NCBI GenBank assembly: GCA_031267385.1
Contig: JAIRZF010000171.1
Coordinates: 1-32,889 of the forward strand
Length of the DNA stretch: 32,889 bases
Source: Dysgonamonadaceae bacterium
GTDB lineage: Bacteria; Bacteroidota; Bacteroidia; Bacteroidales; Azobacteroidaceae
Direction: 5' to 3'
Positions 5,553-10,343 of the stretch are shown here, one piece after another (position 1 is the stretch's first letter; the number at the start of each line of letters is the position of its first letter). The notes beneath the pieces were generated by a model. That model ran no database searches, had not been told where the DNA came from, and saw only the letters and a program-made list of their open reading frames with translations. The position numbers and the translations under genes are program-made.

Positions 5553-5584
5553 TTTGTCTATATTTAAAGTTTGCATTATCTTTG
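5553..5584 (+). promoter_or_regulatory. Bacteroidota-type promoter of rpsU (TTTG-N20-TATCTTTG)
   Basis: TTTG 5553-5556 and TATCTTTG 5577-5584. Confidence 0.75.
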
Positions 5585-5652: not shown

Positions 5653-5844
5653 ATGATTATTGTTCCATTAAAAGAAGGCGAAAATATTGAGAGAGCCTTG
5701 AAGAAATTTAAAAGAAAATTTGAAAAAACAGGTGTTGTTAAAGAATTAAGAAGAAGACAAGCTTTCTCAAAACCTTCTGTAGAAAAGAGAAAACAGAAAA
5801 TTCACGCTGTATACGTGCAAAAACTTCATCAGGCAGAAGAATAA
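5653..5844 (+). CDS. rpsU: 30S ribosomal protein bS21
   Basis: 63 aa basic protein, MIIVPLKEGENIERALKKFKRKFEKTGVVKELRRRQAF. Confidence 0.95.
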   Translation: MIIVPLKEGENIERALKKFKRKFEKTGVVKELRRRQAFSKPSVEKRKQKIHAVYVQKLHQAEE

Positions 5845-5889: not shown

Positions 5890-6774
5890 ATGCTAATAGA
5901 CTCGTTTCTGCAATATCTCCGTTATGAGAAGGGTTTCTCTTCTCATACGGTGTCTTCGTATAGTAACGATTTGAATCAGTATCAGGACTTTGTCCTTCGG
6001 GAGAAGTCGGTTTTTGATCCGAAAGAAGCGGATGTGGCTCTGGTTCGCCGGTGGATTGTTTTTCTGATGAGCGAGGGATATTCCCCTCTGTCTGTGAATC
6101 GTAAGCTTAGTGCATTGAAATCTTTCTTCAGGTACTTGTTTCGGCTAAAACAGATTGCAGTCGATCCTGTTAAAAAAGTAAGCGGCCCCAAAGCAAACAA
6201 AGTACTCCCCAATTTTGTTAAAGAGAAAGACATGGAGATGATTCTCGATGACCCGGAATCGGATCGGTCTTTTGAATCCGTTAGAGACCATACTATTGTA
6301 GAGTTCCTTTACACTACGGGGATGCGCTGTGCCGAACTGGTTGGATTGGATGACAATGACGTCGATTTGGAGTCCGGTTTGTTGAAAGTCACGGGAAAAA
6401 GGAATAAACAGAGGTTAATCCCTTTCTCCGGGCGGTTGAAAGAAGCGGCGGATATTTATTTGAATGTAAGGAGAGAGATGGAGTCCGGCAAACAGGATTC
6501 GGCATTTTTTGTACGAAAAGATGGGCGTCGCCTGACAAATAGCCTTGTGTACAGGATTGTGAATTCCAGTTTGTCGAAAATACCGGGTCTGTCGAAAAAA
6601 AGCCCTCACGTGTTGAGACATACATTTGCAACAAGTATGTTGAATAATGGTGCAGACCTGAATGCGGTTAAAGAATTGTTGGGGCATGCGAGTTTGTCGT
6701 CAACTGAAGTTTATACTCATACTACTTTTGAGGAATTAAAAAAAGTGTATCACCAGGCTCATCCGAGAGCCTGA
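5890..6774 (+). CDS. xerC: Tyrosine recombinase XerC/XerD family
   Basis: 294 aa; N-terminal SAM-like domain; catalytic motifs TTGMRCAEL, HVLRHTFATSML, LGHASLSSTEVYTH. Ends with tandem in-frame TGA TAA. Confidence 0.9.
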   Translation: MLIDSFLQYLRYEKGFSSHTVSSYSNDLNQYQDFVLREKSVFDPKEADVALVRRWIVFLMSEGYSPLSVNRKLSALKSFFRYLFRLKQIAVDPVKKVSGPKANKVLPNFVKEKDMEMILDDPESDRSFESVRDHTIVEFLYTTGMRCAELVGLDDNDVDLESGLLKVTGKRNKQRLIPFSGRLKEAADIYLNVRREMESGKQDSAFFVRKDGRRLTNSLVYRIVNSSLSKIPGLSKKSPHVLRHTFATSMLNNGADLNAVKELLGHASLSSTEVYTHTTFEELKKVYHQAHPRA

Positions 6775-6781
6775 TAAAATT

Positions 6782-6790
6782 AAAGGAGGT
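6782..6790 (+). promoter_or_regulatory. Strong Shine-Dalgarno sequence (AAAGGAGGT) of hpf
   Basis: AAGGAGGT (6783-6790) is 8-nt complementary to the canonical 16S 3' tail; 5 nt before ATG 6796. Confidence 0.85.
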
Positions 6791-6795
6791 TACCT

Positions 6796-7095
6796 ATGGA
6801 AATCAGAATTCAGCCTATTCGTTTTGAAGCAAGTCAACAATTGGAATCTTTTATCCAAAAGAAAGTTGCTAAGTTGGAAAAATATTTCGACGGAATCATT
6901 GCCGCCGAAGTCGTATTGAAAGTGATCAAGCCGGAATCCGCAATGAATAAAGAAGCTTCCATCAAATTGGAAGTGCCTGGACCCGATCTTTTTGCGACAA
7001 AAACCAGTGACACATTTGAAGAATCTATTGATATTGTGGTCGAAGCATTGGAGAAACAATTGGTGAAATTGAAAGAAAAGCAAAGAAGTAAATAA
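6796..7095 (+). CDS. hpf: Ribosome hibernation promoting factor (short HPF/RaiA family)
   Basis: 99 aa with HPF/YfiA-like pattern (IRFEASQQLESFIQKKVAKLEKYF...). Confidence 0.9.
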   Translation: MEIRIQPIRFEASQQLESFIQKKVAKLEKYFDGIIAAEVVLKVIKPESAMNKEASIKLEVPGPDLFATKTSDTFEESIDIVVEALEKQLVKLKEKQRSK

Positions 7096-9899: not shown

Positions 9900-10343
9900 A
9901 TGGCTAAAGAGATTGCTGGACAACTAAAATTTCAAATTAAATGAGGAGCAGCAAACCCTTCTCCACCGGTAGGGCCTGCACTGGGTTCTAAAGGTATTAA
10001 CATTATGGAGTTTTGCAAGCAATTTAATGCCAGAACCCAAGACAAGCCGGGTAAGATATTACCGGTTGTAATTACTTACTACGCCGACAAGTCTTTCGAT
10101 TTTATCGTTAAAACGCCACCGGTTGCAATCCAATTACTGGAAGCGACCAAACAAAAAAGCGGATCTGCAGAACCCAACCGTAAAAAAGTTGCGGAAATTA
10201 CCTGGGATCAGGTAAAGACCATCGCAGAAGATAAAATGGTTGATTTGAACTGTTTCACGCTGGAAGCTGCCATGAAAATGGTTGCCGGTACAGCAAGAAG
10301 TATGGGTATTGCAGTAAAAGGGACTTTCCCTGTAAACAATTAA
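9900..10343 (+). CDS. rplK: 50S ribosomal protein L11 with in-frame TGA at codon 15 (9942-9944)
   Basis: Frame-0 translation [47 protein letters not shown]...GTFPVNN; 148 codons including the final TAA, the normal L11 length. The ORF track only found the part after ATG 10005. Confidence 0.93.

Follow-up and report, generated by a model that had tools for sequence, protein, structure and literature searches.

A strong, conserved Shine-Dalgarno sequence on the hibernation factor gene hpf is characteristic of the Bacteroidales

A strong, conserved Shine-Dalgarno (SD) sequence on hpf is characteristic of the Bacteroidales. It was identified in the window, which is the whole 32,889-nucleotide stretch of Dysgonamonadaceae DNA that was analyzed, and was followed through the order. 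Complete ribosomes of this group are expected to sequester the 3' tail of 16S rRNA in a pocket formed by bS21, bS18, and bS6, and the hpf SD would be an exception to that arrangement. The features of the hpf gene cluster are as follows.

Positions 5553 to 5584, forward strand: candidate Bacteroidetes-type promoter of rpsU-xerC-hpf, read from the sequence, with TTTG (5553-5556), a gap of 20 nt, and TATCTTTG (5577-5584).
Positions 5653 to 5844, forward strand: rpsU (bS21, 63 aa; TIGR00030), with an A-rich leader lacking an SD (-2.5 kcal/mol) and with Tyr54 present.
Positions 5890 to 6774, forward strand: tyrosine recombinase, XerC-like, 294 aa (TIGR02224, PF00589).
Positions 6782 to 6790, forward strand: Shine-Dalgarno sequence AAAGGAGGT, complementary over 9 nt to the 16S tail ACCUCCUUU.
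Positions 6796 to 7095, forward strand: hpf coding sequence, 99 aa, short-form HPF/YfiA with an ATG start (TIGR00741, PF02482, phmmer).

The hpf product scored above the cut-offs of NCBIfam TIGR00741 (E value of 2.5e-16, 60 bits versus 40.9) and Pfam PF02482, the S30AE domain (79.8 bits versus 23.7), and a phmmer search with the protein matched ribosome-bound HPFs in the PDB. Judged by these matches, the gene is a short-form HPF/YfiA ribosome hibernation factor. The XerC-like protein matched Pfam PF00589 and fell slightly under the cut-off of NCBIfam TIGR02224 (E value of 4e-97). The gene order rpsU-xer-hpf was kept in nearly all relatives, and the xerC stop codon of the window was located 21 nt 5' of the hpf start. 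The Bacteroidetes promoter consensus is TTTG/TAnnTTTG, and the candidate promoter upstream of rpsU may produce one transcript for rpsU, xerC, and hpf. An internal hpf promoter was considered and rejected: the TAnnTTTG sequence found within xerC in the window was not conserved (6 of 34 and 20 of 63). No Rfam family matched the cluster.

Nucleotides 6781 to 6798 read TAAAGGAGGTTACCTATG, with the SD ahead of the hpf ATG at 6796 and a spacing of 6 nt between GGAGG and the ATG. An earlier note on this DNA had described a perfect SD here with 8 nt of complementarity to the anti-SD. The string was found exactly where the note had placed it and the pairing was indeed strong, but its length was one more than claimed, because 9 contiguous nt of the 16S tail ACCUCCUUUCU (order form ACCUCCUUU(CU)) paired with AAAGGAGGT of the hpf leader. 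The duplex with ACACCUCCUUUCU had an energy of -13.2 kcal/mol, which was borderline relative to the published range, where about -13 is the exceptional level; our SD-tail energies were computed with RNAduplex, and those of the published work were computed with free_scan (PMC9976891).

Among the 22 gene starts of the window that were scanned, hpf had the sole strong SD, and the runner-up (-6.8 kcal/mol) belonged to a doubtful TTG start. The duplex energies of weaker leaders in the same scan were -4.3 for nusG, -2.5 for rpsU, -1.7 for rplA, and -1.3 for tuf; rplK was off-register in the scan, and its leader, TTAAAATTAAATTAACA, contained no SD by direct reading. Thus, the further claim that rpsU, tuf, rplK, and rplA lack SDs was borne out. 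In the whole assembly, AAAGGAGGT followed by 3 to 7 nt and ATG occurred at 8 sites, compared to 10 for a reversed-pattern control, and the corresponding seven-mer pattern with ATG occurred at 105 sites, compared to 159 in the control. Since these counts were no higher than those of the controls, the genome of the window overall showed no use of strong SDs. It followed that the single hpf site proved nothing on its own, and that conservation was the test.

A search across 393 genomes from the order yielded an hpf orthologue in 354. Leaders were taken from 80 fetched regions, 9 further loci, and the window, with starts located by homology; the sampled loci come from the half of the hpf matches with the better scores and so do not extend to the order's most divergent orthologues. 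Among the matches listed, 78 of the 89 Bacteroidales loci had an hpf SD of -7 kcal/mol or stronger; 69 reached -10 and 35 reached -13, and the median was -12.2. Mock windows placed 42 to 62 nt upstream of hpf reached -7 in 7 of 89 loci and -10 in 3, and 4.8% of shuffled hpf leaders reached -10. When family medians were used, the hpf SD reached -7 in 47 of the 56 sampled families, again among the matches listed. In the same Bacteroidales survey, none of the tuf, secE, rplA, rplL, rpoB, and rpoC leaders reached -7; other leaders that did were those of rpsU (16/86), nusG (15/60), and rplJ (8/59). The lack of conservation in relatives that the earlier note had named as telling against its proposal was therefore not what the survey showed, and conservation placed the hpf site beyond chance.

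The position of the SD was nearly constant while the HPF proteins strongly diverged, down to 43-47% identity. Of the 74 loci holding GGAGG, 73 had it 4 to 8 nt 5' of the hpf ATG, and each of the seven positions just 5' of the motif was an A in 73-88% of cases. The SD nucleotides persisted whether the xerC stop was upstream, xerC overlapped hpf by 11 nt, or no in-frame stop was present. In predicted folds, the hpf GGAGG was moderately open (median unpaired probability of 0.43). A set of 80 named loci from Bacteroidaceae and allied groups, mostly Bacteroides, Phocaeicola, and Parabacteroides and including B. fragilis and P. vulgatus, had an hpf SD of -7 or stronger in all 80 cases and of -10 or stronger in 79, and because these are close relatives, they represent few independent observations. 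We regard it as nearly certain that the hpf SD is under selection. The SD was missing in 11 of the 89 Bacteroidales loci, including one (L061) of the window's own family. On a tree of 120 rows, its distribution needed at least 22 changes, with gain and loss not distinguishable.

The 3' end of the 16S rRNA was absent from the assembly of the window, and the tail was checked on relatives. It read ACCTCCTTTCT in 15 of 16 genomes of the order with an assembled end and ACCTCCTTTTT in the remaining one, and the CCUCC core was present in all 16. Thus, the mutated 16S tail that the earlier note had raised as a counterindication was not seen in these relatives, whose tails were all canonical. An altered tail was also rejected as the cause of hpf SD loss, since the CCTCC core was retained in G013, G032, and G268, the three genomes without an hpf SD whose tail was assembled. 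On the protein side, bS21 Tyr54 was present in the window and invariant in 86 of 86 orthologues; in Flavobacterium johnsoniae, this residue stacks on A1534 and redirects the 16S tail (PMC9976891).

Previous work showed that the tail is sequestered in F. johnsoniae and that ribosomes lacking bS21 prefer strong SDs (PMC9976891). Specifically, a tuf reporter with AGGAGGU gained more than 2-fold when bS21 was truncated and 1.7-fold when it was depleted, SD-less reporters showed no such gain, and on complete ribosomes a strong SD gave no help and somewhat lowered expression (PMC9976891). On our energy scale, the hpf SD was about equal to the AGGAGGU core in an A-rich context. The same scale gave -20.9 kcal/mol for a full 13-bp match and -21.4 for one surveyed rpsU leader, close to the published mode of -20 for rpsU SDs (PMC9976891).

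The earlier note had also proposed that the strong SD sits on hpf instead of rpsU. This was the case in the window and in a 37-genome core clade that includes it, in which 35 genomes had an hpf SD of -9 kcal/mol or stronger and none had an rpsU SD. However, there was no strict trade-off, because 11 Bacteroidales loci carried SDs on both genes, as did several families of other orders, and the negative association between the two was not significant (Fisher P = 0.16; P of about 1 for independent pairs). A strict switch in which the hpf SD replaces that of rpsU was rejected on these grounds. Across 40 families of other Bacteroidia orders, the hpf SD reached -9 in 12 of 39, some of which had an rpsU SD as well. 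As a separate observation, an interrupted extended SD, GAAAG-AGGT (one core G missing), or a near variant recurred 5' of rpsU. This type was seen in seven Bacteroidales families (L100, L116, L124, L126, L130, L120, and L127); it has an energy of about -10 kcal/mol with one bulged rRNA C, and a contiguous-pairing screen might miss it.

SDs were also found on other genes. In the Bacteroidales, rpsR carried AAGGAGAA with a median energy of -9.6 kcal/mol; 22 of 29 leaders reached -7 and none reached -13. A nusG SD of -9 kcal/mol or stronger was observed in 10 Bacteroidales families (L067, L073, L071, L081, L086, L138, L117, L104, and others). In P. vulgatus ATCC 8482 (L204/G676), AAGGAGG followed by 4 to 9 nt and ATG occurred 180 times genome-wide, compared to 105 in a control. 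Among 293 ORFs of 100 aa or longer from 400 kb of the P. vulgatus genome, 2 reached -13, which places the hpf SD near the top 1% in this species. Two P. vulgatus ORFs (L335 and L338) had long SDs of -16.3 kcal/mol.

We judge the chances to be evenly balanced that the Bacteroidales hpf SD is a selected SD of a working type, such that 30S subunits with a free tail initiate better on hpf and HPF levels track incomplete ribosomes. A 30S subunit that lacked bS21, or whose platform pocket was open, would pair through its free tail with the hpf SD and would favor hpf for initiation over genes with ordinary A-rich leaders. More incomplete or damaged ribosomes would then yield more HPF, and basal translation of hpf would continue on complete ribosomes. 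Taken by itself, a response of the hpf SD to ribosome composition, as the earlier note had suggested, is a plausible but tentative proposal with an even or slightly lower chance of being right. A fuller version, in which an anti-SD switch is wired to hibernation, is possible, and we lean against it. In that version, ribosomes without bS21 would translate hpf and hibernate both themselves and others, and a hairpin at the end of xerC would be a second cis element, possibly docking near bS21/bS18. Several observations count against the main proposal. The hpf SD (8 to 9 bp) is weaker than the 9- to 13-bp rpsU SDs needed for autoregulation in F. johnsoniae, 11 of the 89 loci lack the SD with no sign of an altered 16S tail, and GGAGG is no more than moderately open in the predicted folds. 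Given the SDs on rpsR and nusG and the P. vulgatus excess, hpf would not be the sole target of tail-exposed ribosomes, and the other SD-like gene starts in P. vulgatus indicate that the proposed regulation would not be hpf-specific.

A different explanation is that the SD aids initiation constitutively, with no tie to ribosome composition. In this view, hpf, as the third cistron and a short gap after xerC, would have no room for a good A-rich leader, and the SD would help ordinary ribosomes via partial tail exposure. The additional SD genes of the order (rpsR and the nusG genes of 10 families) and the P. vulgatus count of 180 versus 105 fit such a general use. On the other hand, the hpf genes of other families do without an SD at equally short gaps (3 to 15 nt), most Bacteroidales genes lack one, and a strong SD did not help complete F. 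johnsoniae ribosomes (PMC9976891). We consider this explanation rather unlikely.

Under translational coupling, the SD would recapture ribosomes or 30S subunits on completion of xerC, and HPF synthesis would follow xerC translation. The adjacency of xerC and hpf in 85 of 89 loci, with an 11-nt overlap in several, is in keeping with this idea, as is the lack of an SD at the two loci where hpf lies away from xerC (L088 and L125). However, tight adjacency without an SD was common in other families (L221-L223, L230, L232, L247, and L249), and SDs were also present with gaps of 44 to 68 nt (L089, L126, L235, L244, and L251). Closeness to xerC as the sole cause of the SD was rejected because 3- to 15-nt gaps occur without an SD outside the order and SDs occur at 44 to 68 nt. 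In addition, XerC is expected to be scarce and HPF to be abundant, which speaks against coupled synthesis. Coupling thus appears improbable.

The SD might instead serve mainly to start translation internally in genomes whose xerC frame continues into hpf, so that free HPF is still made. In G240 (L076), a single-contig genome, and in G127 (L057), xerC reads through to hpf, and both have a strong SD. Likewise, chain 14 of PDB entry 9i5v is a 401-residue XerC-HPF open frame that was deposited as RaiA. The apparent fused frames are 398 to 408 aa long, and in such species, the simplest source of HPF would be initiation at the SD within the frame. However, in most genomes, including that of the window, xerC has its stop ahead of hpf or within an overlap with it, and fused frames cannot explain the general conservation of the SD, which extends beyond the lineages that have them. 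We therefore consider it very improbable as the main function. Finally, chance or phylogenetic inertia, with an AG-rich leader inherited without function, agrees with the chance-level site counts in the window's genome and the 4.8% of shuffles reaching -10, but can be dismissed given the SD in 47 of 56 sampled families, its near-constant position, the diverged HPFs, and the blank neighbouring leaders.

The proposed response of hpf to tail-free 30S subunits has parallels in known systems. The closest is rpsU autoregulation in F. johnsoniae and much of the Bacteroidota (McNutt et al. 2023, PMC9976891), which likewise places a genome-rare strong SD on a gene of the ribosome economy. The two also share a tail-sequestering class, a canonical tail (here in relatives), bS21 Tyr54, and the same gene cluster. 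Unlike in rpsU autoregulation, the target is hpf, which would be a downstream output rather than a case of self-regulation. The SDs differ in length and strength as well, at 8 to 9 bp (about -12 to -14 kcal/mol) for hpf and 9 to 13 bp (-14 to -21) for rpsU. Extended rpsU SDs were reported in four of five Bacteroidia orders and in none of the Bacteroidales, the order in which the hpf SD is mainly found, and only ribosomal-protein genes were ranked there (PMC9976891). The main text of that paper does not mention hpf. With no qualifying rpsU in the order and only ribosomal-protein genes ranked, hpf appears to have been overlooked so far as an SD gene of the Bacteroidales. The hpf SD names a concrete candidate target for the anti-SD retained in the one Bacteroidia order without an extended rpsU SD.

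Jha et al. 2021, as cited in PMC9976891 and PMC8710568, reportedly described SDs on rpsR (bS18) and some ribosomal-protein genes in the Bacteroidales. Like hpf, rpsR is a translation gene in the same order, and the AAGGAGAA sequence was seen again here; the rpsR SD is weaker (none of 29 at -13, versus 35 of 89 for hpf). In Escherichia coli, CsrA is reported to control hibernation-factor mRNAs (PMC10746276). That system also acts post-transcriptionally on hibernation-factor synthesis, but it works through an RNA-binding protein, whereas the proposed control of hpf would work through anti-SD availability. The presence of the hpf SD in common gut commensals makes the specialized-ribosome idea testable in workable strains. 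If the idea is true, then ribosome completeness would be connected to dormancy.

The end of xerC contained a second conserved element, as follows.

Positions 6754 to 6773, forward strand: RNA hairpin of 7 bp, CAGGCUC-AUCCGA-GAGCCUG, found by folding and formed by the last xerC codons (AHPRA) and the stop.
Positions 6757 to 6760 with 6767 to 6770, forward strand: conserved 4-bp core of the hairpin, GCUC/GAGC, found by comparison of relatives.

Coding for AHPRA already fixes three of the core's four pairs. The fourth is free and joins two synonymous positions, the third bases of the Ala and Arg codons; the covariation of the hairpin thus rests on one free base pair only. In AHPRA sequences, this position was paired in 144 of 147 cases, compared to 115 expected on shuffling, and the pairs were U-A (85), C-G (36), U-G (19), and A-U (4). 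When one sequence was kept per family and type, pairing was retained in 56 of 58, with U-A, C-G, A-U, and U-G types represented. In 12 phylogenetically independent contrasts between T and C in the Ala codon, about 10 were matched by a change in the Arg codon and approximately none were opposite (median P of 0.002). Thus, the hairpin was not simply a consequence of encoding the HPRA peptide of XerC. The U-G pair was common and C-A was nearly absent, which points to coding-strand RNA rather than a DNA palindrome. When Lys replaced Arg and the adjacent pair was lost, pairing dropped to 10 of 19. The Xer paralogue mostly ended in xHPRN/S and served as a loose control only.

A terminator was rejected because no U-tract followed the hairpin. 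In most loci with an SD, 18 to 30 nt separated the end of the core from the hpf ATG, compared to mostly 15 to 19 nt in loci without one, and the hairpin was present across the class, which indicates that it is independent of the SD. As a border 15 to 30 nt ahead of the start in most genomes, the hairpin probably separates the hpf initiation region from the xerC message. We infer this bounding role on the 5' side, as well as the response of the Bacteroidales hpf SD to ribosome composition, from the comparisons above; alternatively, the hairpin may dock on the 30S platform or have a processing role. The hairpin is a covarying RNA element without a match in Rfam.

A minor observation concerned rplK (uL11, 9900-10343), which had an in-frame TGA at codon 15 (positions 9942-9944). 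The rpoB, rpoC, and tuf genes of the window had no internal stops. An error of assembly or sequencing in this metagenome-assembled genome is the probable cause of the TGA; a real nonsense change is possible, and codon reassignment is unlikely. In relatives, codon 15 encoded Gly (GGN) in 57 of 59 sequences and Ala in the other 2.
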